64,000 nt of DNA, taken from Pyrobaculum ferrireducens. Lineage in GTDB: Archaea; Thermoproteota; Thermoprotei; Thermoproteales; Thermoproteaceae. Below, in pieces: positions 22,837-52,000 of the stretch; the first letter of the stretch is position 1; every line of letters begins with the position of its first letter. A program made the position numbers and the translations under genes. The notes beneath the pieces are model-generated. The model made no database searches. It had not been told where the DNA came from and worked only from the letters and a program-made list of their open reading frames with translations. The stretch spans positions 1,154,391-1,218,390 of the forward strand of contig NC_016645.1 in assembly GCF_000234805.1 (NCBI RefSeq). The letters run 5' to 3'.

Positions 22837-23838
22837 TTATTTTACTAGGTATTTTTTATAACTTCCTAGCTTTAGGGATTTGAGAAAGTTTTGAACGATT
22901 ATGCTTAACTCTTTGTTTTTTGGCACTTTGAGGTATAGTTCTTCACGAGTGTCGCTAAGTAGACTTTCTAGGTTTTCCTTGAGTTGGCTGAGGTCTGTGG
23001 ATCTATTGATTAGCTCGAATACGATACGTGGTGGCAATATTTCTAGCTTTTCCAGCAATTTCTTATCGGCATCTTCATCTGAATCATATAAATTTCTTAA
23101 GATTTTTTGATAATCTTCAGTTTTGTATCCAGTTAATTTATAAGTATTTGATATGCCTCGCGCTGGATGATCCTTTGGACACTCAGGTACACTAGTTCGA
23201 AGTTCTTTCACAACTTTAGCTCTCTGCATGAGGAGTAAAAGATATACATATTTTCCAGCATCATGTAGTTGTCGCATTTCTGTACATATCTCCTCAATTG
23301 ATCGCCTTAAATCTGTTGTGACACCCTCAAGTTGATCAATGATTATGTAAAGCGGTTCTTTAGACACTTCGCTGAATAACTCGTTAAATATTTTGACTAT
23401 ATTGCTATTTTCATAATCTATTTTTGTTAGTAATTCTAATCGATTAGGTAGATTTTCAATGTTTGTATCTATCTTGTACTCTTTATGGAGTCTCTCATGT
23501 GGTACGCCGGACTCATTAAATACATAGTGGAGATAATAGATTACATCACGTAAGCTAAGTAATTGCAAATCTGGTTTTCCCACAGTGTTTACTAATTCAT
23601 TAATATCAATATAGATATATTTTTTACCTTGTTCTCTTAATTTGCAAATAATATAAGCACCTACTCCGAATGTTTTTCCATAGCCATAGTATCCAACTAC
23701 GAAGTATAGCCTAGGCATTTGAGCATAGACTTTTTTTCCTACTGTGGTTTCGTATATGTGTTTGCCAAAGACTTCACATGTACTTATTTTATCTGACTTA
23801 ATGTGTAGAGCATCGCCAATTTTAGTTGGTGATGTCAT
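22837..23838 (-). CDS. P-loop ATPase (STAND/ORC-like) coupled to the proteasome-like gene
   Basis: 333 residues from ATG 23838 (MTSPTKIGDALHIKS). Walker A GYYGYGKTFG is near residues 48-57, Walker B LYIIIDQLEG near 160-169, followed by sensor-like LLLLMQRAKVV and a helical C-terminal region. It resembles the ORC/STAND group more than ring unfoldases such as PAN: no hexameric AAA second-region-of-homology signature was seen. A longer frame starts at 23919, but that would overlap the upstream gene by 98 nt; the chosen start overlaps it by 17 nt. Very AT-rich, like its partner. It may deliver substrates to, or be controlled by, the proteasome-like protein. Confidence 0.7.
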   Translation of the reverse strand: MTSPTKIGDALHIKSDKISTCEVFGKHIYETTVGKKVYAQMPRLYFVVGYYGYGKTFGVGAYIICKLREQGKKYIYIDINELVNTVGKPDLQLLSLRDVIYYLHYVFNESGVPHERLHKEYKIDTNIENLPNRLELLTKIDYENSNIVKIFNELFSEVSKEPLYIIIDQLEGVTTDLRRSIEEICTEMRQLHDAGKYVYLLLLMQRAKVVKELRTSVPECPKDHPARGISNTYKLTGYKTEDYQKILRNLYDSDEDADKKLLEKLEILPPRIVFELINRSTDLSQLKENLESLLSDTREELYLKVPKNKELSIIVQNFLKSLKLGSYKKYLVK

Positions 23839-24592
23839 TAGGATAGTTAAATAACTGACTATTAAGTTTTGTTGCAAGGGTGTTAAGCGTAGAGGCAATG
23901 TTCTGAAAAATCTCTTCATATTTAGTTAATATTTCTTTATTTTTATCTATAAAATTCTCTAACAAATAATATGATGTATTTTTGTAAATAAGGACATCAA
24001 ATGATCTTGATATGGACGTATTTGACTTATGGGCTACGTAGAAGATAAAGCCAAGGTTAACAATTGCGTCTGATATTGACGCGCATGGATCCTTAAGCTG
24101 TTCGCGTAGAATGTTGAGGAGATCGTTTGCTAGATTGCTGGCTGATCCAATTGCTATATAATCTTTGTAACCTTCACAAATTATATCAAATCTTGCTCTT
24201 TTCATTTCAGATGGTGAACATAGTATTATCTGTTTTATTTCTGTATTATCTTTTATATAGGCTATTAGAAATAGGAGCTCTACATATTCCTCAATTCCAA
24301 GTTCTATGAATATATTTCTAATATATCCACTGAGATGGACAGCTATTTCTGATTCGCCAACTCTTCGGAGCCTTTCAACTATATCAGAAAGTTTTTTGGT
24401 AATTATCTCACGTAGCTTTGCTATAGTGTTAACGTCACCGGCTGCAGTCATCACTCCGAGAAGTCCTCTTTTATCGCCTAGTGGATATATTTTCACCGCA
24501 ACATCACGGTATCTGCCGCTCGGCGTGCTCTCCCTCTTGTCTGCCAGCATGACGGCTCCATCTCTTGTGAGACATGCCACGGCTAGCATCAT
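23822..24592 (-). CDS. Proteasome beta-like (Ntn-fold) protein without the catalytic threonine
   Basis: About 256 residues. The N-terminus MLAVACLTRDGAVMLADKR, then VAVKIYPL and GVMTAAGDVNTI, aligns without gaps to proteasome beta/HslV-type subunits. Counting the second Met as position 1 puts Asp at 17, Arg at 19 and Lys at 33, the conserved active-site positions, but position 1 is Met, not Thr, with no propeptide cleavage site. It therefore looks non-proteolytic (alpha-like or regulatory) or uses another nucleophile. The C-terminal half is divergent and helical. Start: ATG 24592 is about 25 nt from the palindromic TATA element at 24612-24621; ATG 24604 and TTG 24631 are too close to or inside it. 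Followed by an overlapping ATPase gene. Confidence 0.7.
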   Translation of the reverse strand: MMLAVACLTRDGAVMLADKRESTPSGRYRDVAVKIYPLGDKRGLLGVMTAAGDVNTIAKLREIITKKLSDIVERLRRVGESEIAVHLSGYIRNIFIELGIEEYVELLFLIAYIKDNTEIKQIILCSPSEMKRARFDIICEGYKDYIAIGSASNLANDLLNILREQLKDPCASISDAIVNLGFIFYVAHKSNTSISRSFDVLIYKNTSYYLLENFIDKNKEILTKYEEIFQNIASTLNTLATKLNSQLFNYPNDITN

Positions 24593-24611
24593 GTTGTTTG
24601 GCATAACGTTT

Positions 24612-24621
24612 TTATTAATAA
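24612..24621. promoter_or_regulatory. Palindromic TATA element shared by divergent genes
   Basis: TTATTAATAA is its own reverse complement. It lies about 22 nt before ATG 24639 (nuclease, plus) and about 25 nt before ATG 24592 (proteasome-like, minus). One TBP site could serve both directions and co-regulate the two operons. Confidence 0.6.
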
Positions 24622-24638
24622 TTTTAGGCAACTATTGC

Positions 24639-26288
24639 ATGTATACGAATGGTGGCGAAGGTGAGGAATTGGTTGAGCTGAATAGATGTACAAGCAAGTT
24701 TGGAGAGCGCCCTCTTTTGATGCCGGTGAAGACAGTGGCTTTGGGGACTTCGTTTTGTCTTAAGAAGGCGTATTTTATGCTTATGGCTGATAACCTGCCT
24801 GGTAGCCATACGCCGTACAGACTTACAGCCACCAGCCAGAGTTTGCATGACCTGCTGGCGTATGTGGTTGTGCCCTTTACATTTAGGCTTCTTAGTGAAT
24901 ACTCGCCGCGGGTTGGTGGTGGAGTTGATGTAGATAGGTTGGTGGATGAGGTGTGGTCTGAGGTGAGAGGCGATGTTGAAAGGTATAGTAATGTTAATAT
25001 CAATTACCGGGATCTTAGGAAGACTCTTGTGTCTATGATGAGGGGATACGCTGCGGTGGTTATGTGGCTTGTGAAGTATGGGGGGTTTAGCGGTGATGGT
25101 ATTTTGGTATTTCCGGAGCGTATGATTGTGAGCAGACCTGTTTCTGACGTCTTGGCGGCGGAGGAGTTGGGTGACTTTCTCCCTGTGATTGGTGTACCAG
25201 ATGTGGTGCTTGTTGACAGGTCTAGCCGCCGTGCGGCTGTGATAGACTGGAAAATGGCCGGGGCCGGGTCTGGTAACGAGCTTCACTATGTCCAGTTATT
25301 GCTCTATCAACACATCCTAGGTAGGCTGTTCGGGGATGTGTATGCGTTCTTGGTTTACACAACAGAGAGGAGGGGCACCACTAAGGTTGTGTCGATTGGT
25401 AGGAATGTTAACTTGAAGGAGTTCGGCGTGAGTTACGACTATCGTGAGGTCTCCGACAGGCTGGAGAGGGCGAGGTACGTGGCTCAGCTTCTGTATGGCC
25501 TTGCTTTTTGTAAAGGTATGTTGAGGGTGGCTGTTGGGTTGAACAAGTCGCGTGGGTTGGGTATTCGTGTTTTTAACCCGGAGCGGGGTGTGGGGAAGAG
25601 GAATTACCCATGTAATTACTGTCCCTATAAAACGCTGTGCCGGTATAGGTTTTCTAGGAAGGGGGAGTTGGATGAGGAAATTGCTAGGCTGAGGCGTGGC
25701 TTTAATAAGATGTATAGGATAGCTGTTGAGAAGAAGAGTGAGGAGTATAAGAATCTAATCGATTTTGGTGCTTGTGTAGATTTTGACCAGATGGTGTTTA
25801 AGAGCCCTAGGGTTGTGGAGCTGGTAAAGTGGTTTGGGAGGGAGCCTAGGCCGCTGTCTGACGATGTGATGCGCTATTCTCTGGGTCGTACTACGGTATA
25901 TGTGTTTGGCGGCGACGACCCTCTTAGAGGTTCTCAGCAACGGGGTGTGTTTTCGCCTATCTTGTTTGGTAGGTATGAGGACGACGAGGTGGAGTTGAGG
26001 AGTGTCGGCGGCAGATCGCAGCTGACGGCGTATGTTAGGATGGTGTCGCCTGTATTTTCTGTGAGGTGGCTTCCTCTGTATATGTATTACAGAATTAGGC
26101 CTGGAGATAGGTTGTTTCAAAATGTTAAGGTGTGTAAGGGGGAGGTGCCGATGAATATCGAGTTGAGGGCGATAGCTGCTGTGGAGAATAGTTTGGTTAA
26201 GATGGTAGAGAAAGGCGAGGATTTGCATAGGTGGTGGAGTAGCTTCATAAAGGATCTGGTGCTTACCGCAGTTGATGAGTATGGCTAG
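24639..26288 (+). CDS. Cas4/RecB-like Fe-S nuclease (Dna2-type nuclease part)
   Basis: 549 residues. The RecB-family core is GVPDVVLVD (Asp188), VIDWKMAG (Asp203, Lys205) and YVQLLLYQ, the Q-x-x-x-Y motif (219-223). An N-terminal cysteine in SFCLKKAYF (Cys40) and a C-terminal cluster CNYCPYKTLC complete the four-cysteine pattern of Cas4/AddB iron-sulfur nucleases. A further 200-residue C-terminal region is not recognised. An upstream extension of the frame to 24306 overlaps the divergent gene and its promoter, so ATG 24639 is chosen. The helicase gene downstream overlaps the end, so the pair resembles a split Dna2 nuclease-helicase. Confidence 0.8.
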   Translation: MYTNGGEGEELVELNRCTSKFGERPLLMPVKTVALGTSFCLKKAYFMLMADNLPGSHTPYRLTATSQSLHDLLAYVVVPFTFRLLSEYSPRVGGGVDVDRLVDEVWSEVRGDVERYSNVNINYRDLRKTLVSMMRGYAAVVMWLVKYGGFSGDGILVFPERMIVSRPVSDVLAAEELGDFLPVIGVPDVVLVDRSSRRAAVIDWKMAGAGSGNELHYVQLLLYQHILGRLFGDVYAFLVYTTERRGTTKVVSIGRNVNLKEFGVSYDYREVSDRLERARYVAQLLYGLAFCKGMLRVAVGLNKSRGLGIRVFNPERGVGKRNYPCNYCPYKTLCRYRFSRKGELDEEIARLRRGFNKMYRIAVEKKSEEYKNLIDFGACVDFDQMVFKSPRVVELVKWFGREPRPLSDDVMRYSLGRTTVYVFGGDDPLRGSQQRGVFSPILFGRYEDDEVELRSVGGRSQLTAYVRMVSPVFSVRWLPLYMYYRIRPGDRLFQNVKVCKGEVPMNIELRAIAAVENSLVKMVEKGEDLHRWWSSFIKDLVLTAVDEYG

Positions 26289-27720
26289 TTTCTACAACGT
26301 TGATCGCCTATTGGAACAAAGATCTCTCGACGCTAGTTGGCGTTTGAAGGTGAACATGTATTCTATGGGTCCATACGCTGAGATCGGGAGGTATATAGAC
26401 GATCTCCTTGCTGGTAATCCATCAATTGTAGGTGTGCCAGGGGTGCCAGGTGCTGGGAAGACTACTTTCTACGCATATACGATGGCGAATTACCTGAGAG
26501 ATATTATTTGTGGAGGTGGGAGGTTAAAGACTTTGTATGTTTATTTGGCGCCGACTAATGATTTGCTTATAGACTTTCTCGAGAAGTTTCTTGGCTTTCT
26601 TAGAGGGGCTTTCCAAGTGGATTGTAGTCCGGAGGAGCTGGCTAGGAGAATTAGGGTGTATGGATCGAAAATAGAGGCTGACAAATATCCTCAGGTATTT
26701 AAGGCTGTAGACGACGATGTTCTTTTGGTCATATCGACTGAATGGCAGAGGGTGTCCGCGAGGGTTCTGAGCCCCCGTAATCAAGTCTATCTGATCGACG
26801 AGGCTAGTAGGTTGACGATGTCCCACTTCTTTATACCAATTGCCGACGGCATCGCTAAGGGGAGGCAGGACGAGGATATTCTTGGGTTTGCAGTAATAGG
26901 TGATGTGAACCAAGCGGTTGGCCTTAGTGAGGGCGAGCGACAACTATTACTGCTGGAACATGTGAAGCGGCTGTCTAAGGGGAGTGGCAGGGTGCACCTC
27001 GTAGATCTAAATATAAGTTGGCGGCTTCCAAGAGGCACAGAGGAGCCTATTAAAGAGGGGTATTATGATGGGAATCTCGAAGCTAAGGGCAATCCCTTTT
27101 TGTTAAAGGCACCTCATGAGGAGCTTAAGAGGATTCTCAGCGATGAGCACTGCAGAAGGTACGAGAAAGTTATAAATGAGTTTATCGTACTCGCCTCTAG
27201 GTATCCTCATGTGCATATTGAACTGGATACGCATTTCGTACAGGGTGAGAGGTATGACGAGCGTAGGGCTAGGCTTGCCTGGTGTCTTGCGCGTGTCATC
27301 TCTGCTCTTTCTAAAAAGAGGGTGTCTGTGGTCGTGCCTTATAACCAGATGGCATTTGCCGTGAGGATGCTGGGTAGACTAGAGAATGTGCATACCGCTA
27401 CGGTGGCGAGCTATCTGGGGAGGGAGGATGATATTATTATATCTGTGTTTGGGAAGGAACAAGTGGGTGGTTGTAATACCTACTATCTGCAGGATCCCTA
27501 CATTCCCAATGTTCAGCATAGTAGGCAGAAGAATGCCCTGTATTCTATAGGCTCTAGCGAGATTCTGCTGTCAAGCGTTGACGCTTGCAAAAAGCAGTTG
27601 GGGGGTAGTCCGAATAAGCGTTACAGTGAAGATGTGTATGAAGGTCTTGAGAAGCTTCACAAGATGATTGAAGAGTTGCAGAGGCTTGAGAAGAGGGTGG
27701 TCAGGGCGCGGGGCTTATGA
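26275..27720 (+). CDS. SF1 helicase (Dna2/UPF1-like)
   Basis: 481 residues. Motif I GVPGAGKTT (near 54-62), motif II YLIDEASRL (DEAx), motif III VIGDVNQAVGL, a Q/arginine motif LNISWRLPRG, motif V-like TATVASYLGREDDIIIS and motif VI NVQHSRQKNALYSIGS. This is the SF1B layout of 5'-3' helicases such as Dna2. The start (ATG 26275 or 26281) lies inside the last codons of the Cas4-like gene, so the two proteins are co-translated and probably form a complex that unwinds and cuts DNA. A defence or recombination role is inferred from the island context. Confidence 0.8.
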   Translation: MSMASFYNVDRLLEQRSLDASWRLKVNMYSMGPYAEIGRYIDDLLAGNPSIVGVPGVPGAGKTTFYAYTMANYLRDIICGGGRLKTLYVYLAPTNDLLIDFLEKFLGFLRGAFQVDCSPEELARRIRVYGSKIEADKYPQVFKAVDDDVLLVISTEWQRVSARVLSPRNQVYLIDEASRLTMSHFFIPIADGIAKGRQDEDILGFAVIGDVNQAVGLSEGERQLLLLEHVKRLSKGSGRVHLVDLNISWRLPRGTEEPIKEGYYDGNLEAKGNPFLLKAPHEELKRILSDEHCRRYEKVINEFIVLASRYPHVHIELDTHFVQGERYDERRARLAWCLARVISALSKKRVSVVVPYNQMAFAVRMLGRLENVHTATVASYLGREDDIIISVFGKEQVGGCNTYYLQDPYIPNVQHSRQKNALYSIGSSEILLSSVDACKKQLGGSPNKRYSEDVYEGLEKLHKMIEELQRLEKRVVRARGL

Positions 27721-28207: not shown

Positions 28208-29415
28208 AGCTCCACCACGGCTTGGTACTGGCTGTCTCCAAGCCTTCTTACAGCCTTTACGCGGCCCCACTTACTAGCAGTGTCTAGGAATTGGCGGTAG
28301 GCGACGTAGCGGCCGCTTAGCGCGTTGTACACCGAGAAGGCGACGGCCCTCTTTGCCACTCTCTTGATTTCTGCCACGGCCTCTTCTGGTCTGTGGAGGA
28401 AGTTGTAGACGTTCCAGAAGATGGCGACGTCAACGCCGCGGCTTCTTATTGGCAACATATGTGCGTCCCCCACGATTCGGTCTATCAGCAGTCCGTTTCC
28501 TCTCGCGCGCAGTATTGTCTCGTCTATGTCTAGTAGTATTACGTGCCGGGCGCCCCATCTTATCGTCGCCGCGCCCTTGGTGCCGAAGCCGCTTCCCACG
28601 TCTAGCACCACGGCGTCTCTGTAGTCTATCGCGGCTAGTATCGGCGGTATTGAGTACTTCGCCGCTCTGGATCTAACCACGGTGGGTCTGCCGCCTTTGA
28701 TAAGCGCCGGGTTTGGTGCTACGATGCCTCTCTCTGCAAGTTTCGTGATTTCATCCCACAGCTCTCTAGCCGGTAGCTTTGCCCCTACTCCGTATTGAGC
28801 TAATACGCTGTCTGCCGAGTATCCGCCGAATATCTCAAGCGTTGCTGGAAAGAGTACACGGAGTAGAGACACGACAAATGCTGTTTTCGCAACGTCCATC
28901 CCGGTGCACTCAGCCACCTTTTTGACAGGCGTGGGCCGTGTGGAGAGGCATGATATGGTTTTCGTCACGGCTCCTCCCAGGGGCGTTGCTGTCACAGCAT
29001 CCCTCCTCACTACTAAGACGTCGTTGCGTATCTCGGCAAGGCCCATGTCCACATATCGTCTCAATGGAGGCATCCTCCTAACATCCACGGCGCAGGGTAC
29101 CTCATACCTCCTCAGGTTCCCCACCTTCGCTCTTACAACGGCCACGATGTCCTCAACCCAGAAATTTACAGTCAGCATTTCTCCGTTGCCTACAAGGCGT
29201 GATACTAAGTCGCAGCTTACTTCATTGCTATGTGTTATCAATGGTGTCAACAAAAGCCGAGAGGCTGATGTAACGTTAATAATATCATTCCTAAGGTTTC
29301 CTAAAAGTTCTTGAACTCTGAGACATCTGTCACGCAAAAAGTATTGTGTATAAATACCGGTTGGTACCAACTGACGTGTCTCAGCTACTGGGCTTCTCCT
29401 TCTTAGAAGAGCCAT
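28204..29415 (-). CDS. Two-domain methyltransferase with unknown N-terminal region
   Basis: 403 residues. The last 150 form a class I methyltransferase: VVLDVGSGFGTKGAATIRWG (motif I), VILLDIDETILRARG (post-I), VDVAIFWNVYNFLHRPEEAV (motif IV). The first 250 residues include a possible winged helix (KKVAECTGMDVAKTAFVVSL) and otherwise match nothing I know. ATG 29415 has a TTTAAATAAG element 26 nt upstream on its strand, so the gene starts inside the 5' end of the divergent DndC-like gene, overlapping by 40-70 nt. Coupled to the small methyltransferase after it. Their joint substrate is unknown; given the DndC-like neighbour, nucleic acid is possible. Confidence 0.7.
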   Translation of the reverse strand: MALLRRRSPVAETRQLVPTGIYTQYFLRDRCLRVQELLGNLRNDIINVTSASRLLLTPLITHSNEVSCDLVSRLVGNGEMLTVNFWVEDIVAVVRAKVGNLRRYEVPCAVDVRRMPPLRRYVDMGLAEIRNDVLVVRRDAVTATPLGGAVTKTISCLSTRPTPVKKVAECTGMDVAKTAFVVSLLRVLFPATLEIFGGYSADSVLAQYGVGAKLPARELWDEITKLAERGIVAPNPALIKGGRPTVVRSRAAKYSIPPILAAIDYRDAVVLDVGSGFGTKGAATIRWGARHVILLDIDETILRARGNGLLIDRIVGDAHMLPIRSRGVDVAIFWNVYNFLHRPEEAVAEIKRVAKRAVAFSVYNALSGRYVAYRQFLDTASKWGRVKAVRRLGDSQYQAVVEL

Positions 29416-30560
29416 TCAGGGCGTTTGACGAGGCTTATTTAAAGTATCGTACTTTTGTGTTGGCGTTTTCGGGGGGCAAGGACTCAACAGCCGTTGCTGT
29501 TCTATTTTACAAGTGGCTAAAGGAGAGGGGGGTAAGGGATGTTGAGGTGGTGCTTCTCCACAACGACACGCTGAGCGAGATTCCAGACATGGAGACGTGG
29601 GCTAGGTACTTCATGGATCAGTTTGAAGAGAAGATGAAGAGTATCGGCATCGCCGTGAGGAGGATTGTGGCGGCTCCGTCGCCCCTCAACACCTGGTACT
29701 GGAGGGTGTATGTGAGGGGGTACCCCGCCTCGACGTTTAATTTTAGGTGGTGTGTTGATCTTCTCAAGGTGGAGCCTACTATGAGGGCGCTGAAGGAGTT
29801 GAGGGATTATATCCTGGTAGTGGGCTCACGCGACGAAGAGAGCGCGGCGAGGGCCAAGTCTATGCAAGTGAGGTTCGGCAAATGCATGAGGGAGGGGTCT
29901 TGTCTCGGAGCCTACTTCGCAGTAAATAACGACATTCCCAAGGTGGCTCCTATTAGGTTCTGGAGTCTGGAGGACGTGTGGCGGTTTTTAAAAACTCAGA
30001 GAGATTTTGATGTAAAGCCTCTGTTAAGGCTGTACCTCTTTAACGGGAATATGGGGGTGAGATACGGCTGTTGGCACTGTACCTTGGTAAAGAGGCAGTG
30101 GGGCAACTACATAGATGACAGATTTCTGTATGCAGAGGCTGTGAGGGTCTTGTACCGCGTGGTGTCTGATATGGAGACGTTGAGGACGCCGAAGTCGGGC
30201 GGCTATAGCAGGCTGGGCCCTATAAACGCCTTGGGCCGATCCATAATTTTCAATGCGGTGAGGAGGGCCGAGGAGCTAGGCGGCGAGATGTTCTACGGCC
30301 TCAACATAGAGGTCCAGCTACATAAACTGCATTACACGCTCCGTGTAATCTTTTATGAACTGAGCGAGAAATTAGCCGACGACATAATCTCGGCTTTAGA
30401 TCCCACGGATAGGAGGGTCTCTATCCACAATCTTCGGGATTTGAAGTCCAACGACGGGTGGAGGGAAGCTCTTGATGCTATTGAGTCCAGGGTGGTGAAG
30501 AGAGATGTGGATAATAGGGTTAGGGAGAGGCTTTTGGAGCTACTGAGACGCCTCTATTGA
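29346..30560 (+). CDS. DndC-like ATP-pyrophosphatase (PAPS-reductase fold)
   Basis: 404 residues. The PP-loop is AFSGGKDSTAVAV (42-48 SGGKDST). Blocks follow the DndC pattern: LHNDTLSEIPDM, FRWCVDLLKVEP (Cys136), ILVVGSRDEESAARAK, IRFWSLEDVWRFL, and RYGCWHCTLVKR (Cys242, Cys245), which with Cys136/180/186 could bind an Fe-S cluster. Known: DndC/SspD activates DNA for phosphorothioation. DndA, DndB, DndD and DndE are absent in this window, so this is a solitary relative; tRNA thiolation or another sulfur transfer remains possible. Two starts fit: GTG 29346, or GTG 29376, which lies 24 nt after TATAAATA (29349-29356). Confidence 0.78.
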   Translation: MYKYRLVPTDVSQLLGFSFLEEPFRAFDEAYLKYRTFVLAFSGGKDSTAVAVLFYKWLKERGVRDVEVVLLHNDTLSEIPDMETWARYFMDQFEEKMKSIGIAVRRIVAAPSPLNTWYWRVYVRGYPASTFNFRWCVDLLKVEPTMRALKELRDYILVVGSRDEESAARAKSMQVRFGKCMREGSCLGAYFAVNNDIPKVAPIRFWSLEDVWRFLKTQRDFDVKPLLRLYLFNGNMGVRYGCWHCTLVKRQWGNYIDDRFLYAEAVRVLYRVVSDMETLRTPKSGGYSRLGPINALGRSIIFNAVRRAEELGGEMFYGLNIEVQLHKLHYTLRVIFYELSEKLADDIISALDPTDRRVSIHNLRDLKSNDGWREALDAIESRVVKRDVDNRVRERLLELLRRLY

Positions 30561-30883: not shown

Positions 30884-30973
30884 ATGGCTTGCTATCCGGA
30901 GAGAGTGTTGCTTACGGACTGTCTGCGCAGTGTTGACAGTATTAGGAGGTTGCACCACGCTGGGTGCTTATGA
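30884..30973 (+). CDS. Leader mini-gene of 29 codons, coupled to the helicase
   Basis: It encodes MACYPERVLLTDCLRSVD and ends HHAGCL. It has three cysteines and no recognised family. It occupies the leaderless start position after the TATA region at 30851-30868, and its TGA overlaps the helicase ATG as ATGA. It may be a leader that sets helicase translation, or a tiny protein. The pattern repeats the 8705-8836 case. Confidence 0.4.
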   Translation: MACYPERVLLTDCLRSVDSIRRLHHAGCL

Positions 30974-33900
30974 GGCCCGCTCGGGAGGAGGCCAGAAAGT
31001 ACCGTAGCCTTGTCTTGTGTCCGCTGTTTAGAGAAGTCGTGGTGGATGAGCGGGCTGTTAAAAAGAGGACGGAAGCCCACGATGATTTCGTCAAGAAGGC
31101 TGTTTTACTTCTAAGCGAGATGGAGGGTGGTTGCCGCGAGCTGAGGCTGGATCTCGAGCGTGCGCAGCCTGACGCGGTTCTGGAGTGCGGCGATAAGATT
31201 TATGTCGTTGAGGTTAAGAGCTATCCGTTTGCTATCACAGATGAAGAGCACTACTGCTCTAGTGGCTACTTGAGACCTTACCCCGCCGATTTTGAACAAG
31301 CCGTCTCGTACAAAGAGAGGGCGCAGGCGCGTACAAGTAGGGAGATAGTACCCGTCTTGGTGTATAGGGGAATTCCGCTGGGAGGTCTGCGTGACGCGCC
31401 CTTTTTTATATTCATTAAAGAGGAGGAAGGAGAGTACCTGTCTGGTGGACATGTTGTAAGGGGCCGCGTTGCTTCTGAGGGGCAGATGCGCGGGGTGGAG
31501 CACGGCGTCTATAAACCGGGACCTGAGTGCTGTGTATGCGCGTCGGCGGACTGTCCCGTAGGGAGAAAAATGCGGAGCTATCTTGGTTGCGCTGGCGGCA
31601 GGAGTGGCGGCGGTGGGGTGTTGCAGTTGCCGACTGATGTTATATCGGCATATCAGAGGTTGCTGGTGACTGAGTGGTGTCTGGCTCGCCACGGCACTAG
31701 GTGCGTGAAGTGCGGTCCGATCTACTTGGCTCTGTCGCAGACAACTCTTCACAGGGACGATCTGCCTCTGACGAGGGAGCACGTACTGCGTGCTGTCGGT
31801 CAGCAACTTCTCCAGCAACTAGAGTCCAATAGGCTTTTAGTAGAGAAGTCCTGTGACGTCTATAAGGAGTCACTGAACAAAATAAAGATTAGGAACGGCT
31901 ATGTAGTTGCTGAGGGTGTAACGCGCAGAGACTTCTTAGTAATGCTTGAATACATATCGCTTCTCTACTCACTCGGGTATGGCGCCAGCGGTGGGGTGCA
32001 GAGCCTTCCTGTTCCGGATAAGTGCTACAGGACGTACCACGGAGAGGTTGCGAGGCTTGTGCGGAACACGTCGGCGTTGCCTGACGACGGAAGGGTTTTT
32101 GAAGCATACTACCTGCCAGCTATAGTTGACTACCTAGGCAAGAGAAATATCGACGTAGCAAGCGCTGTTACGAGTTCGTTCGGAGCTCTTTTAGGCGGGG
32201 ATGTCCTAAAAAAATTATCTGAAAGTTTGCGTAGCGAAGGCGGCCAAGCTGTTAGCAAGGTATCCCAGTTCCAAAATGAAGCTCTTATGGAGATTGGGAA
32301 GAGACTTAGCGCGTGGCTGACTGGTAGCGAAAAGAAGCCTCCTTTTGTGCTTATGACGGCGCCTCCCGGATCTGGGAAGACTCTTGTGTTTCTGGTTGCC
32401 GCGCTGGCCGTTGTTCTTGCTGGGGGGAAAGTCGTGATTATGTACCCAAGCAAAAAGCTTGCACTGCAACAAGTACAGCAAATCTACTACACACTGGAGG
32501 AGCTTAATAGCCAGCCTGGTAGTCGTATTTCCCTAGCTATACTAGATGGCGACAGCACCAGGTGTAGCCGAAGAAGACAAGGCCCAGTGCGCTCGCTGAA
32601 GTGCCGGCAGGGGCGGCACAGCTTAGAGTTCCAGAACGGTCAGTACCTCTGTGATGGGCAGTCAGTCGATTGGTTCACCGACTGTGAAGACGGCGCATTG
32701 AGCAGAGACATTATCGTGACGAATCCGTACAAGCTGTCTTCTATGCTTATGAGGAGTCAGAACGTCGCAACGATGCTGGCAGATAGGCTGAGACTGATCG
32801 TAATAGATGAAGCCCACACTATTCTCGAACCGCGGGAGCTCGATTTTCTGACGGCTCTTATTCACCGCCTGTTTATCCTTGGCGGAATTGATCGCGTTGA
32901 AAAGTATCCGGCCTTTATACTCTCCAGCGCTACTATAACTAGCTCGGGGCTTCCCTTTGCGGAAGAAGCCCGCGAGAGACTTATAACGTTCAGATCGATA
33001 GGTGCGCTTGAGCGTGTTGAGAGCGCCAGTCCAGCGGAGGTAAATGCTTTTACCAAACAAATCTCTGAGCTACTGCTTGGCGGAAATCTTGCGAATTATT
33101 ATGAAACCGCTGTTATAGACTACTACAGCATAGGTAGGCAGAGCTCAGGCAAGTCTAAAGTCACAGCCCCCATGGTGATTTTTACAAATCCGATGGAATC
33201 TCCCAGCGGCACTGTTCAAGAGGCATCGGTTTCGCTAATGCTGGCCGCCGCAACCAGGTTATATTCAGGTGGTCAGTATAATAATTTCTCTTCGGTTGTA
33301 TTTTTCGACAGCAAGGAGACACTGGCTGAGGTTGCATCATACGTAAGAGCGAGACTTGTGTCTATAGAGGGATCGCCGGCTGATAAAACTCTGACAAAGC
33401 CCTTCTTCCTAAATTGCACCCCCGGCTCTCTGTGTATTAAGGGCGGCTGGAACGGCCTTAAGGTAATAAAAAACATCCTAATGTCAGGTAGCTACGGAGA
33501 GCTAGAGGACTTCAGCCACCTATCTCTGTTCTGCACCAGACTTAGCGAGCTGAACGCGGCATACAAATACGCATCAATGATGTATTCTGGACAGCGTGCG
33601 GCCTCGGCGCAACCTCCTAAGTGCTATGATACGGCAAGACAAGCCGCGGAGCAAATATTAAGAGATCTTATCCAGAACGTCAGTAATCTGAGCCAGAGGA
33701 GCACTCTCCTGGTGCACCACGCGGACTTGGAAGATTCTATAAGATACGCGGTAGAGAGGAAGCTGGAGATGCCGGGGTCATGGTACACTGTCCTGTCCAC
33801 ATCTACTCTTGAGCTTGGTGTGAACCTCAGCGGCGTTGGAGCCGTGGGCCAGTTCGGCCTGCCGTGGCTTGCTGAGAACGTGATTCAGCGCTTCGGTCGC

Positions 33901-34737
33901 GGCGGGAGAGATGAAAGCGTTTTGTACTCCACAGTTGGATTTCTGTTTGCGAAGAATACAGGCGAAGACGTAGCGCTCATAGATGAAGATTATGCAGTAG
34001 CAAGGCTATTTGCATTCAAGAGAACCGTCCTTCCGCCGCGTAACATTGATAGGCTAATGAGCATCGAAGAGCTTATAGCATATACAGTGTTCCGTGCTAC
34101 AGGTGGTAACGAGCAACAAGTTCTCCATGCAGTACAGAACTCTATAAACTACTTAGGAATTCCTAATAATACTGCTCCTGAGATTTTCAATAGAATCAAT
34201 ATAATCTTTCCAGTTATGGTGCAAATAGCATCCCAGCAGATTTCTTCACAGCGATCAACATCCCTAAACAATTACAAGTCACAGATTAGCTTTATGTTGG
34301 GGACATTATGTAGTCAGTTAGGCAATTATGGCGGTGTCCAGCTTCAGCAAATGTTGGTAAATGTTTGCAAACAGTATAAGGATCATCTGTTAAAGTTTGC
34401 CTGGGAGATCTACTACACAATTACACAAGTTATAAATAATGATCAAGCGTGGATGCAGGCTGGATCTATGCAACGTACACTCCTGAAACTCCAGGACAAA
34501 ATATTAGGGATGATTCTTCAATATTATCCGAGTAGTAGTACACGAAGAGATATCGGTAGGCTTCTTCAACTGTCGCTAATTCCGCCGATGCCCGATCCCC
34601 GCATTATAGATGTTACCCTAAATAAATACAGTATTTCAGCTAGATATCGACAGGGATATAAAGTTTCGAATTCATCACTAAGGGAGGCGTATGCTAGGTC
34701 AATTCCTCTTAAAGTAGACAGATACGAAGAACTATGA
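30970..34737 (+). CDS. Large nuclease-helicase: PD-(D/E)XK domain plus SF2 DExH helicase (DrmA/Lhr-like)
   Basis: About 1,255 residues. The N-terminal nuclease core is AQPDAVLE (Asp near 68) and IYVVEVKSYPF (Glu81, Lys83), followed by a cysteine cluster PECCVCASADC at about 180-190, as in Fe-S nucleases. The SF2 motor has motif I APPGSGKT (~465), DEAH in VIDEAHTIL (~613), SAT in FILSSATI (~655), a C-terminal TSTLELGVN block and motif VI QRFGRGGR (~973). Size and order recall DISARM DrmA-type or Lhr-type helicases, but the fused nuclease is unusual. ATG 30970 overlaps the mini-gene stop; GTG 30964 is the alternative. The DUF1998/DrmB-like gene follows with an ATGA overlap. Confidence 0.8.
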   Translation: MRPAREEARKYRSLVLCPLFREVVVDERAVKKRTEAHDDFVKKAVLLLSEMEGGCRELRLDLERAQPDAVLECGDKIYVVEVKSYPFAITDEEHYCSSGYLRPYPADFEQAVSYKERAQARTSREIVPVLVYRGIPLGGLRDAPFFIFIKEEEGEYLSGGHVVRGRVASEGQMRGVEHGVYKPGPECCVCASADCPVGRKMRSYLGCAGGRSGGGGVLQLPTDVISAYQRLLVTEWCLARHGTRCVKCGPIYLALSQTTLHRDDLPLTREHVLRAVGQQLLQQLESNRLLVEKSCDVYKESLNKIKIRNGYVVAEGVTRRDFLVMLEYISLLYSLGYGASGGVQSLPVPDKCYRTYHGEVARLVRNTSALPDDGRVFEAYYLPAIVDYLGKRNIDVASAVTSSFGALLGGDVLKKLSESLRSEGGQAVSKVSQFQNEALMEIGKRLSAWLTGSEKKPPFVLMTAPPGSGKTLVFLVAALAVVLAGGKVVIMYPSKKLALQQVQQIYYTLEELNSQPGSRISLAILDGDSTRCSRRRQGPVRSLKCRQGRHSLEFQNGQYLCDGQSVDWFTDCEDGALSRDIIVTNPYKLSSMLMRSQNVATMLADRLRLIVIDEAHTILEPRELDFLTALIHRLFILGGIDRVEKYPAFILSSATITSSGLPFAEEARERLITFRSIGALERVESASPAEVNAFTKQISELLLGGNLANYYETAVIDYYSIGRQSSGKSKVTAPMVIFTNPMESPSGTVQEASVSLMLAAATRLYSGGQYNNFSSVVFFDSKETLAEVASYVRARLVSIEGSPADKTLTKPFFLNCTPGSLCIKGGWNGLKVIKNILMSGSYGELEDFSHLSLFCTRLSELNAAYKYASMMYSGQRAASAQPPKCYDTARQAAEQILRDLIQNVSNLSQRSTLLVHHADLEDSIRYAVERKLEMPGSWYTVLSTSTLELGVNLSGVGAVGQFGLPWLAENVIQRFGRGGRDESVLYSTVGFLFAKNTGEDVALIDEDYAVARLFAFKRTVLPPRNIDRLMSIEELIAYTVFRATGGNEQQVLHAVQNSINYLGIPNNTAPEIFNRINIIFPVMVQIASQQISSQRSTSLNNYKSQISFMLGTLCSQLGNYGGVQLQQMLVNVCKQYKDHLLKFAWEIYYTITQVINNDQAWMQAGSMQRTLLKLQDKILGMILQYYPSSSTRRDIGRLLQLSLIPPMPDPRIIDVTLNKYSISARYRQGYKVSNSSLREAYARSIPLKVDRYEEL

Positions 34738-36785
34738 AGATATATTTACCAGCCTACAGGTATAGACACTTTTATATTTTATCAGGTTTCGTCACCAGTA
34801 ACAGTACTAGTTTGACTATAGATATGAATTTACGTAATATCGAGCAGGGATCTATTAGCGACCTAACGGCAGGATTGCAGAGATCTATAGAGAGATCTAT
34901 AGATAGCTCGCCTGTTAAGGAACTGGACTATGTGGTAGCGTTTGACATGAGCTACCTTGTCAGCAAGCTGTGCAAAATGTGTGCTGGCACAAAGAGAGGA
35001 TCCCCCTCAGGCTCTGGTGTGCCAGTCTGTGGGTATTACGTAGAGAGAAGGCGTCTTAATGAACGCTGGCGCAACTATGGAATACTAATCTTGGCGAAAT
35101 GTGATGTCGGGGAGGGAGTTAGAGATATCTATGCATTTGTGAAGAAATTCTCCTCAGGTTCGGATAAGCCCTGGATAGCAGGCATTCTGTATGGTATAAA
35201 CATCGGCGCACAGGGTCGCGATATGAATATGCGCATTAGGATAGATGGCTTAGGTATAGATGACAGTTTCGTAGCTGTAGTGAGCAGTGTGAATTATCTC
35301 AGCTCTTATCCGAGAACATATACCGACGAGGTCACATTCAGCTCTGAGAGTAGCACATCTATTGGCGGTATAGACATGGAAGACGGTACCGCCGTGGTGG
35401 AATTGTTTTATCTAGGATCTATACTGTCGGTAAAAAGCAGGAGTACTGGTGCCTTTATGCCGGTAGTCGTGCATTACGATGTAGAAGGTAGCTCTTTTCC
35501 CAGATCTTTGCACCCGGTTGCGCGTGCGTATAAATTGCGGCGGAGCGTCAGCGCCGACGAGCTTTACAGCTATGTTAAAAAGGCGCTCACTTCTGGCATG
35601 CCTGCAGTAAAGTTGCTAATGCAGAATCTAGTTGCGGGGAGGGCGCTCTCTGCATTGGGCTGTAGAGGCTGGGTTACTGAGAGAGAAATAGTTGCAAGTG
35701 TTTATGGCAATGAGACGGTAATCACGACGCCGATATTAGGCAGGATACTTTGCATCTACAGAAGGCTTTACACGCCACGAGCAAGCTACAGAGGCTATAA
35801 TGGGCTGAATAGCCTTCTGAAGAGATGGCTAGAGGCAGTGAAAGAGTGTAAATGCAAAAGTAGCGATTTTAGCAGTTCGCAAGGTTGGGTAGATCGCTTT
35901 GTGAACTGTCTCGAGACATCAGGGAAATTATCGGAGTTCAGACAGTGTTTACTACAGAACTATAGTGGTAATATTAGACGCCTAGAGTGTAGTTTAATGA
36001 GATCCAATCCTGAGCTATTTACAGCGCTTGTGTTTGTGGAGCTGTTAATGCTTTCGGCCTTGATTATAGGCGCCCACGGCGCATCTCACCTCATGGCTAA
36101 GGCCGCGGGCATCAGTTCGCGTGACTTTGCTGAAATGATTGAAATAGAGATCTGCGCTAACGACTTCCCCCTTGTTAAGTGTGTTTGGCATCAGTTAGAA
36201 GATGTCGGGGACGTGAGCTTTGATGGGGTAATTAAACTAAAATATGACGAAGGCTGTAAGGGCGTTAAGGTTCAAATCTCTACGTACGATCTGAGCGGCG
36301 CCACACATACAAAATTTGGCGAGAGGCTTCTCAAGCTAGTTATGGAGCTAGGCGGATGTGGTTCTGCGAGGGATATTTGCAATTATGCTTGGATTGAGGA
36401 GAAGAGGAGGCTCGACAGAGCATTCAGCATCTTAGTTGCGAACAATACATTACTTGGAGAGCTCGATAGACATCTCGGCTCTATGCCTCAGGAAGTAGCA
36501 CCCCCGCGGGACCTCTTCAGATTTATGCTTGGCGGCATTGTGGGCGAAGTTAGGAGAAGGCTTGGCCAGACTGCGCAACAACAGAGGCTACCGCGTAAGC
36601 TTTATCAGTATGTGTGGCCTCGTCATGTTCCTAGCTGTGCTGATGGATGTCACCTCTGCGTCCAGGTACCGAGGATGATGTGCGTCTACAGTCCTCTGCA
36701 TGAGGAGCTTAGGGTGTCGAAGAGCGCCTCGCTGTGGTTGCTGGAGCCACTCTGTTCCATGGTGCAGAGTGCCGCAGAGACATAG
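34734..36785 (+). CDS. DUF1998/DrmB-like protein
   Basis: 683 residues. The clearest sign is at the C-terminus: PSCADGCHLCVQVPRMMC, the C-x3-G-C-x2-C...C pattern that ends DUF1998 proteins. A helical block ALIIGAHGASHLMAKAAG about 200 residues earlier stands where DUF1998 has its HxxAH-type helix. An N-terminal cysteine group (CKMCAGTKRG...VCGYY) may bind a second metal. Known: DrmB (DUF1998) is an obligate partner of the DrmA helicase in DISARM. The ATGA overlap with the nuclease-helicase shows they are made together. Similarity is remote, so the family call is moderate. The function would be DNA loading or recognition for the helicase. Confidence 0.58.
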   Translation: MKIYLPAYRYRHFYILSGFVTSNSTSLTIDMNLRNIEQGSISDLTAGLQRSIERSIDSSPVKELDYVVAFDMSYLVSKLCKMCAGTKRGSPSGSGVPVCGYYVERRRLNERWRNYGILILAKCDVGEGVRDIYAFVKKFSSGSDKPWIAGILYGINIGAQGRDMNMRIRIDGLGIDDSFVAVVSSVNYLSSYPRTYTDEVTFSSESSTSIGGIDMEDGTAVVELFYLGSILSVKSRSTGAFMPVVVHYDVEGSSFPRSLHPVARAYKLRRSVSADELYSYVKKALTSGMPAVKLLMQNLVAGRALSALGCRGWVTEREIVASVYGNETVITTPILGRILCIYRRLYTPRASYRGYNGLNSLLKRWLEAVKECKCKSSDFSSSQGWVDRFVNCLETSGKLSEFRQCLLQNYSGNIRRLECSLMRSNPELFTALVFVELLMLSALIIGAHGASHLMAKAAGISSRDFAEMIEIEICANDFPLVKCVWHQLEDVGDVSFDGVIKLKYDEGCKGVKVQISTYDLSGATHTKFGERLLKLVMELGGCGSARDICNYAWIEEKRRLDRAFSILVANNTLLGELDRHLGSMPQEVAPPRDLFRFMLGGIVGEVRRRLGQTAQQQRLPRKLYQYVWPRHVPSCADGCHLCVQVPRMMCVYSPLHEELRVSKSASLWLLEPLCSMVQSAAET

Positions 36786-37597: not shown

Positions 37598-39031
37598 TTA
37601 GGCCTTGGGTATGGGGCTCAGCGGCTCTAGTTTTTCGAGAATTGTTAAGAGGGCTTTGGCTATTTCTGCGGCTGCGAGTGGGGGAACGGCCTCTCCTATC
37701 TGTGCTCTTATCTGGGCTTTTGATCCGTAAAAGAGGAAGGAGTCGGGAAACGTCTGCAGTCTGGCTTTTTCCCTCAGAGTGAGGGCGGCTCTGTCTCTGT
37801 CATAGTGGTAGCCGTAAGTCCCTCCGCCGCCGTATGCTACCACTGTGTACGCTGGCTGTAGCGGATGGAGTCTTCTGTACACGAGACTTATGCCTTTGCC
37901 CTCTACCTCCCACGGCGTTCCATAGACGAATTCGTGATTTTCTCCGGGCGGGATTCTCCTCACCCTCTCGACGGTGTTCCTGCCGTTTTTGGGCAGATCT
38001 GTAGTGCCGTCGGGGAGCCTCAGCTCAGCAACGGGCACCCCGTAGTAGCCTAGTTGCTTCAGTGTCCTTTCGTGGAGCTTCATGGCTTCTTCAAACTCCG
38101 CCTCGTCTGCTCTCTCGATGCCGTTCAGCCGCAGGTAGTCCTCAACGACGTCTAGCGTGAGCTTGTCCCAGACTTCGCGCTTCCACCGCTTAGCTCTTTC
38201 GGTGCCCACTTCTCTCCAGATCCCTTTCCACTTCTCCATTATCTCGACGTAGCTGTCTTGCAACTGTGTCAGGGTTCTGCCTTCGAACACCTCTAGCGGC
38301 GTAAGAGGGTATTTTTTAAAGAGGGAGTCATCGCCGCTGATTGCCCTTTCGAGTAGCGTCCTGGCTTCTCTTATCTGCTGAGGTGAGCTGAATAAATCGC
38401 GCCTTATTCCGACAATAATGAGCCGCTTGCGCCTCTGGGGGACTCCCAGCGCCGAGAAGTCGGATACTCCGCTGTAGATTATCTCGTAGCCACTATTAAC
38501 CACTCTGCCGTTCACCTCGAGCGGTAGCATCTTTTTGATGTCTTCCCACCTAATATTGAGCCTTGCGAGATCTTCGATGATTGTCTGAAAGGCGTAGCCG
38601 TCATTAGCGCTCAACAGCCCGGGCACATTCTCAAAGACAAATGCCTTTGGCTGAAGCACAGCTAGAGCTCTTACAAAGTGCGCGTAGAGCTTTCCCCTCT
38701 TGACCTTTATTCCATTTCTATCCCACGGGGGCCCTCTAATTATTGAAAAATCTTGGCAGGGAGGTCCTCCGATAAGTATGTCGACTTTATCTGCCAGCGG
38801 CGAGAAGATGATCTTCTCGACGTCGCAAGCCATTACAGCCCGGGGCACAGCCTCGACAACGTCCTCTCCGCATTCTATCAGCTTCATCCCAAAATTCCTA
38901 GAGTAGGTGCGCGTAGCGGCGTAGAGCACGTCATTAGCAAAAACTATGTCGTAAGTGCCGACCATTTTAAATCCCCAGTCGAGACCGCCTGCGCCGGAAA
39001 ACAGCGACGCTATCCTAAGCATAGCGGCCAA
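37598..39031 (-). CDS. DNA (cytosine-5-)-methyltransferase, copy 2
   Basis: 477 residues. Motif I LFSGAGGLDWGF, motif IV GGPPCQDFS, motif VI ENVPGLLS, motif VIII GVPQRRKRLIIVG, motif IX RLQTFPDSF, and motif X in QIGEAVPPLAAAEIAKAL. It is nearly colinear with copy 1 at 12167, including the presumed target-recognition part (LEVFEGRTLTQLQDSYVE against LEVFEGRPLPELQDKYVE), so both probably methylate the same sequence. No endonuclease lies beside it. It may be an orphan, a backup for the first locus, or the self-protection enzyme of the nuclease-helicase/DUF1998 unit, as DrmMII is in class 2 DISARM. The second Met (39022) is an equally good start. Confidence 0.92.
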   Translation of the reverse strand: MAAMLRIASLFSGAGGLDWGFKMVGTYDIVFANDVLYAATRTYSRNFGMKLIECGEDVVEAVPRAVMACDVEKIIFSPLADKVDILIGGPPCQDFSIIRGPPWDRNGIKVKRGKLYAHFVRALAVLQPKAFVFENVPGLLSANDGYAFQTIIEDLARLNIRWEDIKKMLPLEVNGRVVNSGYEIIYSGVSDFSALGVPQRRKRLIIVGIRRDLFSSPQQIREARTLLERAISGDDSLFKKYPLTPLEVFEGRTLTQLQDSYVEIMEKWKGIWREVGTERAKRWKREVWDKLTLDVVEDYLRLNGIERADEAEFEEAMKLHERTLKQLGYYGVPVAELRLPDGTTDLPKNGRNTVERVRRIPPGENHEFVYGTPWEVEGKGISLVYRRLHPLQPAYTVVAYGGGGTYGYHYDRDRAALTLREKARLQTFPDSFLFYGSKAQIRAQIGEAVPPLAAAEIAKALLTILEKLEPLSPIPKA

Positions 39032-49019: not shown

Positions 49020-52000
49020 TCAGATACACAGCCGCAGCGCTCTGCACACCGGCTCCAATCTCATCAACGGATCTAGGGCGCCTCCTGTGAGCTGTATCTG
49101 ACTTTCCTTTCTGTTCCACTTCTTCAAGCCGAGGGCCTTCAGCACAGCCGCTGTCCTCAGATAGTCCGCCTCGCGTCCGCCCTCCGCGTCTGCGTGTATG
49201 TTGACGTAGCCCTTAATCTCGCCGCGGCTGGTTTTGAAAAACCTCGCCTCCTTCTCCACCGCCGCTTCGCGTCCTCCTTCTATTATCTTTGCCCTTATTT
49301 TCACTAGTAGGTGTTCTTTCCGTTCACCGCGCTCCACGCTGGCTTCCACCGCCTCGATGTGGATCTTCAGCCGCCTGCCCTCTACCTCCACCTCGCTTTC
49401 GAAAGGCGGCTTCACAGAGCCCCACATCTCGCCTTCGCGGAAGTACTCCTCCAGCCGCCGGCGCACCTCCTCTCCCTTCGCCTCCGCCTCCTTCAAAAGC
49501 GCCTCCTTCAGCCGCTGGGCCTTCTCCTTCGCATCACCCTCTCCGTGTAGGGCAAGCCAGCCGATGTACCTAAGGCCGTCCGCCGTTATCCGGACAAAGC
49601 CCCTCTCGCCCCCTCTCGGCTCTCTGGCGGTGAAGTGCACAACGCACCAGTCGCCTTCGCATGTATCCCTCATACCCAGCCCCCGCAGAAGCTCCACAGC
49701 CTTGCTGAAGGACTGGGGGTCGTTGGGTTGGTACTTTACTTCTACAGCGCCGTTTTTTCTCAGCCATACGGAGAACTTGATATCGCCCCAATCAGGCACG
49801 CCCCCCTCGAACTTCTTGACTAGGCGTCTGTAGGCGTCTTCCTTCAACGCACCCACCTCTCTGCACTGTTTGAGGAACTCCGCCACAGCCTTTCTAACCT
49901 CCTCGTGGACGGAGTCGGCGGCCAGCGCATTGGTGGTTACGACTATGCGCCACTCGTCGCGGTTGCGAGATTTGTGGTGACGCTTATCCACCTCGGCCTT
50001 AACGCCCACAGCCCTAAGCACCGCCGCCCTCCTCTCGGCCTCGGCGCGGTCGGTTGTGTCGAAGCGGAGCTCCACGGCGTTGTCTTTATCAAGACGTATT
50101 GAGTACTCAGCCGTTGCGCCGTCGGCCTCGACAACTAGCCTAGCCCTCGGCCTCTTGCCCTCCGTAGTGAAGTCCTTAATCCACGCCTTGACCCTCTCCG
50201 CCCTGGCCATGTCAATCAGCTTCGCCACCTTTGAATAAATCTGTTCGTCGCCCTTCACCACCTCAAGCATACGCTCGAGAGCCGCCAGATAAGGCAGAGC
50301 ATCCCGGGCGAACCTTTTGGCCTCCCCGCCGTACAGCTTTATGTGGACCGCTCTCTCGGTTTTGTACATCTTCGGCTGGTACCCCAATCCCCTCAGCAGT
50401 GCGTAGTATAGAGCCGCCTTGACCTCCGCCGGCACCTCGTCCCCCCTTCCGCCGCCGACGGCCAGCCTAACCTCGTTTTGATACACCGAGCCGTCTCCCA
50501 GCACTGCGTGTAGGTACATCCCCACGGCGCGCCTCCTCGCAACCCCGCGCTTCCCAGCATCCTCTTCGCTCTGCGCCAGCTCTCTCAAGGAGTTCACAAG
50601 GGTGTGGAACACCCGGTGCTCCTTGAGATCCGGAGCCTTTGCAAGCCACTCGCCGATCCACCTCTCCAGCTTCTGCCTAAACGCCTCGCGGTCTACGCCA
50701 GAGCCCTCCAGATGTCTAACTACGAAATCGATGAACCTCTTCCTCTCATCCTCCGGCATGCTACGCGCCGCCGACAGCCTCTCCCACGCCTCCCTGGCAT
50801 ATTCGTCGTACAGCTCTACGCGGTACATAGGCCTCAGACCCTCGCTGGTTATGCTGAAGCGCTTGACGTCTATCTTGACAGGCTTTCCTCCACTCTCGCC
50901 GCCTCCCCAGTGTATCTCCTCCGCCCCTACGCCGAAGGTCGAGAGGAACGTCACCACCTGTTCCAAGGAGGTGGTCGCCATAATAATCATATCCTCATCT
51001 ACATACACATCGCTCAACAGCCACCCGTCCTGAGCCTCGCGGCTGGGCGGAGGCGCCTTGCCCTTCTTCAACATCTCCTCGTACTTTAACACAGCCTTCC
51101 TCGCCTCCTCCAGCTTCCTCTCCGCCAGCGGGCGGGTCAACTCGCCGACATATAGCCAAGCGCCGCCGCCCTCCATAAGCTCCAGCTTAGCCTTCATGCC
51201 GCCGGCGTATATGACGTACTCCCCCTCCTTCTCTGTCCTCTCCACCCTCGCCTCGCCCCTCTCAAAAGCCTCCGCCAGGTGCTTCAGCTCTTCGCGCTCC
51301 TTGGCGTATCTCAACACTCTGCCCAGCATCACCGCCAATCTCTCTTCAAGCGGAAGCTCGCCTATCCGTCCGCGTTTAACGCTTTGTGCCTTCTCCAGCA
51401 ACTTGAGATACGCACTAACCGGCGTGTTAGCCGCAAGCGAAGCCAAATCCTCCGCGGCGAGGGCCCTCAACGCAGTCAAGCCCACCGCATTGTCGTCTAC
51501 AGATGCTCTGAGATACGCCACGGCCCTAGTGCCGTAGCTGGCGCCGGAGAATCTAGACAGCCTATAGGCAGTCGCCTCAGCCAGCTCCCTCGCCTCCAAC
51601 GCGTCCACCTCTACCCACTTCGCCACCTCCTCCAACGCCTTCACGCCTTTCCTCTCAGCCGCGGCCTTTAGGTTCACGGCGATTGTGTTAAGCTCGCGTT
51701 CCGCTTCCTCCGCGATTCTCAGCACCCTACCCTCGGCCTCCTCCAGCCTCTTCACCAAGCCGTAGAACTCCCTCCACTTCTCTCTGTCGCCCTCCAGCGC
51801 CTGCTTCAAAACCTCGGCGGCTTTTTTCCTCGCCTCCCACATCTCAGTCAACTTGTCGTACACATCATGGGCGCGGCGCTGGAGAACAGCCCAAACGATT
51901 AGAAAAGCCGCCTTGGCGTATTCGTTCTTCTCCTCCTCGCTACGCTTTGGGCTATACCAATTTCTCAAAGCCTCGGCCACAGGCCCCAGCCAAGGCACCC

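Follow-up and report, generated by a model that had tools for sequence, protein, structure and literature searches.

The sequence considered here (the window) is a 64,000-nucleotide stretch of the 2.47-Mb genome of the archaeon Pyrobaculum ferrireducens (G000:C1:1154391-1218390). Within it two overlapping genes, P1 and P2, encode a nuclease-helicase fusion and a putative DUF1998-type partner, and directly downstream, on the opposite strand, lie a glycosylase gene and a DNA methyltransferase gene. Together P1 and P2 are probably the restriction part of a defence system of Thermoproteota that resembles DISARM and is linked to methylation. The features of the locus are these:

30970-34737, + strand: P1, 1255 aa, in which an N-terminal Cas4-like PD-(D/E)XK nuclease with a Cys cluster is fused to a superfamily 2 (SF2) helicase from the YprA-like group of DUF1998-associated helicases
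30982-31617, + strand: P1 nuclease segment, with one N-terminal Cys, His, D-ExK, Q-x3-Y and a C-terminal CxxCx4C
34734-36785, + strand: P2, 683 aa, ATG start, a putative divergent DUF1998-type partner with an HGxSHL motif and a C-terminal CxDGCxxC...C
34734-34737, + strand: ATGA stop-start overlap of P1 and P2
36851-37546, - strand: Mig2, an HhH-GPD glycosylase whose best solved match is 1kea, and thus a possible G-T mismatch repair enzyme
37598-39031, - strand: MT2, a 5-methylcytosine DNA methyltransferase and the predicted modification partner

The reading frames of P1 and P2 are both intact. That of P1 is open from a GTG at 30964 to 34737 (1257 aa), and an in-frame ATG at 30970 gives the 1255-aa product. 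The GC contents of the two genes, 0.50 and 0.48, are below those of the left (0.57) and right (0.61) parts of the window. A preliminary description of this DNA, made from its letters, had proposed a 1,255-residue protein joining a PD-(D/E)XK core to an SF2 helicase and coupled by an ATGA overlap to a second protein; the overlap is present in the sequence, and the fusion is borne out by the domain analysis.

The nuclease occupies about the first 200 residues of P1. In an alignment with six homologues it keeps all invariant residues of a Cas4-type core: 14 columns are invariant across all seven sequences, and these include the catalytic positions and four cysteines (C13, H33, D64, E77, K79, Q106, Y110, C183, C186 and C191 in segment numbering). 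The family therefore carries the hallmark set of Cas4, namely the aspartate of the PD-(D/E)XK core, ExK, QxxxY and four Cys, and the Cys cluster of the preliminary description is present in the refined form of one N-terminal Cys plus CxxCx4C. Among library profiles, Pfam gives P1 itself a sub-threshold NERD match only (E=0.0016 with the segment, 0.011 with the whole protein), PDDEXK_1 is matched by three of the seven members (best 2.2e-9), and the best PDB profile match is to the Cas4 protein 4r5q, weakly (E=0.01). In the window and in G058, both Pyrobaculum, nuclease and helicase form one protein; in five further loci the nuclease is a separate gene for a product of 185-221 aa, located immediately 5' of the helicase gene in L028, L029 and L056, and at the opposite end of the cluster, convergent with the methyltransferase gene, in L023 and L025. 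The nuclease profile, run over the open reading frames (ORFs) of all loci, gave seven full matches, one per P1 locus, together with the L027 scar described below and a weak match in L062 (E=0.0011).

The remainder of P1 matches the DEAD (E=2.5e-17) and Helicase_C (E=1.6e-8) models, both above the Pfam cut-off, and helicase motifs I, II, III, V and VI are intact in all six aligned proteins. No model of PADLOC, Pfam or NCBIfam provides a specific name for P1 or P2; matches of P1 to SngC, DrmA, DpdJ, BrxHI and TIGR04121 reflect the common SF2 core and were not taken as family calls. The helicase was placed in a tree of 22 helicases and 346 columns, in which long branches are present. Among its references, DrmA is represented by only two sequences and BRIGADE by one Haloferax helicase pair, judged BRIGADE-like from its layout; the references do not include ARMADA, TALON, Druantia or bacterial DrmA, and Hel308 was left out since its motif I was not recognised. 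Seven P1 proteins, from the loci described below, form one clade (98/97), and together with a set of relatives, here termed the wide family, they form another (100/99) that lies among DUF1998-linked helicases. Six groupings of P1 plus the wide set were compared by the approximately unbiased (AU) test, with uncorrected p values. Those with DpdJ (p-AU 0.053), MrfA (0.174) and the Haloferax pair (0.167) are compatible with the data, that with SngC is rejected (0.0030), and that with the two DrmA sequences is marginally rejected (0.031). A single clade of P1 and these two DrmA sequences to the exclusion of the wide set is rejected at p-AU 4.1e-5. The P1 helicase thus groups with DUF1998-linked (YprA/MZB) helicases and is not the sister of DrmA. 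Identity with Lhr, the case that the preliminary description had named as fatal to its proposal if joined to a lack of DUF1998 signal in P2, was likewise rejected (P1 plus wide plus Lhr, p-AU 0.0029).

Two blocks are conserved in the P2 family: HGxSHLL, and CxDGCxxC followed by PL and SK; in P2 itself the cysteines are spaced C635-x3-C639-x2-C642...C650. The relationship to DUF1998 proteins was traced through a relay of profiles. The C-terminal part of P2 matches the wide family at 96.6% (E=5.2e-10), the wide family matches DrmB at 95.8% (7.4e-9), and DrmB matches MrfA at 95.7% (9.7e-9), while four unrelated control alignments reach 0.1% with the C-terminal part of P2 and at most 0.2% with the full length. 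Full-length P2 matches the wide family at 91.4% in the relay run and at 94.4% in another run. Because this chain, with its clean controls, takes the place of a direct match, P2 is here called a divergent DUF1998 subunit by profile relay, which would supply it with the four-Cys DUF1998/MZB module. The DUF1998-type end seen in the preliminary description accordingly stands as a Cys pattern and through the relay, though no library model calls P2 directly; similarly, the search with DrmB profiles that had been suggested as a check gave no match to P2, and DrmB is reached via the wide family.

The wide family itself (G133, G135, G072) has blocks similar to those of P2 and, in all three proteins scanned, a C-terminal phospholipase D (PLD, DrmC-like) domain. 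One member, L053:7883-10237, exceeds the Pfam cut-off for MZB (27.4 versus 24.2 bits) and also carries PLDc_2. The scan with the P1-type nuclease profile gave no match in the wide-clade loci. Since the P1 clade has a Cas4-like nuclease and its sister clade a PLD domain, these arrangements point to nuclease exchange on a single helicase/DUF1998 platform. The suggestion that a nuclease built into the system replaces DrmC is in keeping with this pattern (Cas4-like in seven of seven P1 loci versus PLD in the three wide proteins). The gene content of three wide loci was also recorded: L053:5485-11728, L035:6259-12223 and L051:1481-14422 each combine a helicase, a DUF1998-PLD fusion and a methyltransferase, and L051 additionally has a DUF499 ATPase and an HmaB-like methyltransferase.

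All seven loci of the P1 type retain the trio of helicase, P2 and Cas4-like nuclease. The order of P1 and P2 is the same throughout, with a 4-base overlap in five loci and genes no more than one base from touching in the other two. Because full-length homologues occur in the same order, touching or overlapping, in seven loci, the pairing is not a product of chance. Among 398 genomes of the phylum a P2 profile matched 11 (six full length, two remnants and three distant), with a second, distant place in G133, and a search with the single P2 sequence matched six. A 4-row alignment run against a genome collection found three loci, all in Thermoproteota, and added the Sulfolobales archaeon Acd1 as the seventh locus; the single-sequence scan of that collection found no relative. 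No P2-family match was found in viral contigs, nor in plasmids with the L025 homologue of P2, and P1 gave just short helicase-core matches in three plasmid records and none in phages. On these scans the family is restricted to Thermoproteota, with the proviso that short seeds or one-phylum scans may miss distant members. G189 (E=1.3e-6) was not counted as P2: its match is a 276-aa ORF on a contig of 4.2 kb similar to the wide type. The wide relatives were also taken to include G072, G244 and the second locus of G133. Seven weak P1 matches were examined: L035 is a wide-clade system, and L032, L033, L034, L036, L037 and L038 were excluded since they match the helicase core alone or nothing in later comparisons.

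Decay is evident within the genus. In G034 a 117-aa ORF (L027:9251-9604) runs from the first part of the nuclease straight into the Cys block at the P2 C-terminus and is the scar of a deletion through the module; genes for a methyltransferase, a restriction enzyme and a glycosylase lie beside it. All that is left in G065 is the end of P2, with two stops. The module is real, conserved and rare.

A DNA methyltransferase lies in the neighbourhood of six of the seven loci, and its type varies: 5-methylcytosine in the window and G058, N4/N6 in G042, G265 and G133, and Eco57I/N6 in Acd1. In the genus, all 11 genomes have some match to the MT2 query, but only four (G000, G058, G034 and, in two pieces, G065) show at least 57% identity across most of the query. 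The same four hold P2 or its remnant, near the methyltransferase in each; the chance of so perfect an overlap is 1 in 330, as calculated by hand for independent genomes, which these related ones are not. The second gene, Mig2, matches 1kea at E=4.6e-40 and has a Tyr in its LPGVGxY motif, a residue typical of MIG and MutY and not of endonuclease III. The natural reading of these sequence features is that Mig2 would repair deaminated 5-methylcytosine. Elsewhere in the window is a paralogous restriction-modification locus:

10363-11025, - strand: Mig1, a glycosylase 64% identical to Mig2
11160-12176, + strand: REase1, a type II restriction enzyme (PDLC03411, E=4e-119)
12167-13669, - strand: MT1, a paralogous 5-methylcytosine methyltransferase 65% identical to MT2

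This locus (10363-13669) has the type II enzyme and no P1-P2, and at the MT2 locus, where P1-P2 is present, no counterpart of REase1 was seen. The reciprocal arrangement suggests, short of proof, that P1-P2 serves as the restricting part at the MT2 locus. G058 holds both a type II enzyme and P1-P2; in addition, a gene for a PLD/NgoFVII-type nuclease (L021:11253-12254), convergent with P2, is possibly an extra DrmC-like partner there.

Against the assignment as a methylation-linked, DISARM-like module must be set several results. The DrmB and DUF1998 models of PADLOC and Pfam give no direct match to P2 (the Pfam MZB model reaches E=0.1 at residues 353-375, outside the Cys region), the direct comparison of P2 with the DrmB profile gives only 57% (E=1.1e-4) for the cut region and between 10.7 and 18.6% for the whole protein, and that with MrfA gives 12%. 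The G058 copy of P2 is without one of the four cysteines, the P2 profile finds nothing meaningful among PDB sequences, and AlphaFold2 models from 3-row alignments were unusable, with a mean predicted local distance difference test score (pLDDT) of 36.6 for P2 and 35.6 for residues 1-1194 of P1. As to the modification partner, no recognisable methyltransferase was present among the scanned ORFs of G165 (part of its 20-kb stretch), and the co-occurrence in the genus comprises 11 related genomes with no independent events. Finally, MT2 and Mig2 are convergent with P1-P2 and share no operon with them, and for this reason their joint function is argued from adjacency.

Convergence also invites the view that P1-P2 is a defence element in its own right, set by the accident of a shared defence hot spot next to a restriction-modification locus with which it has no connection. 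In other places the MT2 family is accompanied by a type II enzyme, and the island contains other defence-like genes, as this view would have it; yet the same neighbours occur in all four genus genomes with P2 or its remnants, and methyltransferases of other types adjoin the module in other genera, so that such an accident of position is unlikely.

The genus also contains a canonical DISARM system. In G129 (L061:3567-10922) a 5-methylcytosine-type methyltransferase and a Mig-like glycosylase stand in a row with a 1095-aa DrmA, a 460-aa DrmB and a PLD protein, and after these come two pieces of a gene that forms the right flank of both the G058 locus and the first restriction-modification locus of the window. 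With this flank gene common to G129, G058 and the MT1 locus, the P1-P2 system seems to share with DISARM both its hot spot and the type of its modification partner. No match to G129 DrmB was found in plasmids. It may then be asked whether P1-P2 is itself DISARM, diverged rapidly, with P1 as DrmA, P2 as DrmB, and DrmC lost and replaced. Helicase and DUF1998 genes are split, an arrangement consistent only in DISARM among the YprA branches and sporadic elsewhere (PMC12458937), the adjoining 5-methylcytosine methyltransferase matches DrmMII (E=9.2e-42), and the Mig-like glycosylase is common to the G129 system. However, the groupings of P1 with DrmA are rejected, as reported above, the DrmB model has no match in the host genome and three among 300 phylum genomes, none of them a P1-P2 genome, and the type II profile of MT2 (E=9.5e-204) is far better than that of DrmMII. 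Since the helicase belongs with the DUF1998-linked group but is not sister to DrmA, P1-P2 is placed outside DISARM as a DISARM-like system; of the two options left by the preliminary description, a separate system fits best, and membership of DISARM proper is unlikely. A DNA repair helicase-nuclease comparable to MrfAB, without a role in defence, is very improbable, for although MrfA is a repair helicase (PMC12458937) and its grouping with P1 and the wide set is compatible with the data, the family is very patchy (six full-length copies in 398 genomes) and decays in close relatives, methyltransferases of differing types accompany it in six of seven loci, and the host already encodes a separate MrfA-like helicase with MZB.

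The preferred interpretation thus remains a restriction module of a methylation-linked defence system. The sequences themselves show intact catalytic motifs, gene coupling, a conserved three-part core, linkage to methyltransferases, patchiness and decay. The family is a DISARM-like branch of its own, with a Cas4-type nuclease predicted to stand where DISARM has the PLD-type DrmC. In the mechanism envisaged, P2 would cap the helicase core of P1 as DrmB caps DrmA, so that the complex forms one ATP-driven single-strand translocase. P2 would clamp the strand moved by P1, by analogy with the DrmAB model (PMC9142583) and the MrfA canopy (PMC12458937), and the Cas4-like domain would degrade the strand fed to it by the helicase, the job of the PLD nuclease DrmC in DISARM. 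Methylation, as the linked methyltransferases suggest, would be the self mark: MT2 would place 5-methylcytosine on host DNA, which the machine would then spare, and Mig2 may repair the T:G mispairs that arise from methylcytosine deamination at high growth temperature.

A bolder formulation, offered tentatively and given somewhat short of even odds, is that the loci represent a separate methylation-licensed defence class of Thermoproteota, composed of a split YprA-type helicase and a Cas4-family nuclease (free, or fused in Pyrobaculum). Here an AddAB-like DNA-shredding engine would have been recruited to restriction-modification in parallel with DISARM, in the same hot spot and with a shared type of methyltransferase and glycosylase.

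Other genes of the window deserve record. Immediately 5' of P1 lies a gene for a DndC-like protein of PAPS-reductase type (29346-30560, + strand; PADLOC DndC, E=1.7e-32), with no other Dnd match among its scanned neighbours in the window. At 24306-27720 (+ strand), with 22837-23919 (- strand), is an array comprising a second Cas4-like nuclease (PDDEXK_1, E=6.5e-7) followed by an IGHMBP2-like superfamily 1 helicase; the true start of the first ORF, at 24306, is probably well downstream, inside the ORF. A related array is found in Pyrobaculum sp. WP30 (L026:3-6038), again close to these restriction-modification genes of the Mig, REase and MT type. A single open frame of 4608 aa, an unusual length for an archaeon, extends over 49020-62846 (- strand).

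P1-P2 offers a compact, heat-stable protein pair in which nuclease and helicase are physically tied, and the pairing with Mig suggests how 5-methylcytosine self-marking may be tolerated near 100 C. In DISARM, DrmC appears dispensable and the manner in which DNA is destroyed is unsettled (PMC9142583); this step becomes testable because a natural relative has the nuclease joined to the helicase.

The system resembles DISARM in having helicase and DUF1998-type subunit encoded by separate adjacent genes, here overlapping, together with a methyltransferase and a nuclease. It differs in that its helicase is not sister to DrmA, the DrmB model misses P2, and the nuclease, a separate PLD protein (DrmC) in DISARM, is of Cas4-like type and joined to the N-terminus of the helicase; no PLD nuclease was found among the scanned neighbours in the window. 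The helicases of UvrD-Cas4 fusions and of AddAB/RecB belong to superfamily 1 and are unrelated to P1. These systems share with P1 the coupling of a helicase to a Cas4/RecB-type nuclease, and some UvrD-Cas4 loci include Dcm and Vsr, functionally akin to the 5-methylcytosine methyltransferase and Mig described here (PMC5704561). ARMADA, BRIGADE, TALON, Druantia and Dpd, placed among the YprA-family defence systems mapped in PMC12458937, likewise combine a YprA-like helicase, a nuclease domain or gene and a DUF1998 canopy. Their nuclease fusions (Vsr, PLD, RNase H-like) are C-terminal and their DUF1998 is mostly in the same protein, whereas the P1 fusion is N-terminal and P2 is split off. No BrxHII-like helicase, PglX-like methylase, 7-deazaguanine genes or TPR-CSD/TBP occur among the scanned neighbours in the window. 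The available part of PMC4158269 contains nothing on a system of the P1-P2 type, and no report of a Cas4-like nuclease at a helicase N-terminus, combined with a separately encoded DUF1998 partner, was found in a literature search that did not extend to supplementary tables or most subscription journals. A close precedent is the linkage of Cas4-like (pfam12705) genes to COG1205 YprA helicases in several bacteria and mesophilic archaea, with a predicted role in defence, where a Cas4-like nuclease also adjoins a DUF1998-type helicase (PMC5704561). In those loci DUF1998 is at the helicase C-terminus, whereas in the thermophilic Thermoproteota it is split off as P2 and, in the two Pyrobaculum genomes, the nuclease is fused N-terminally.

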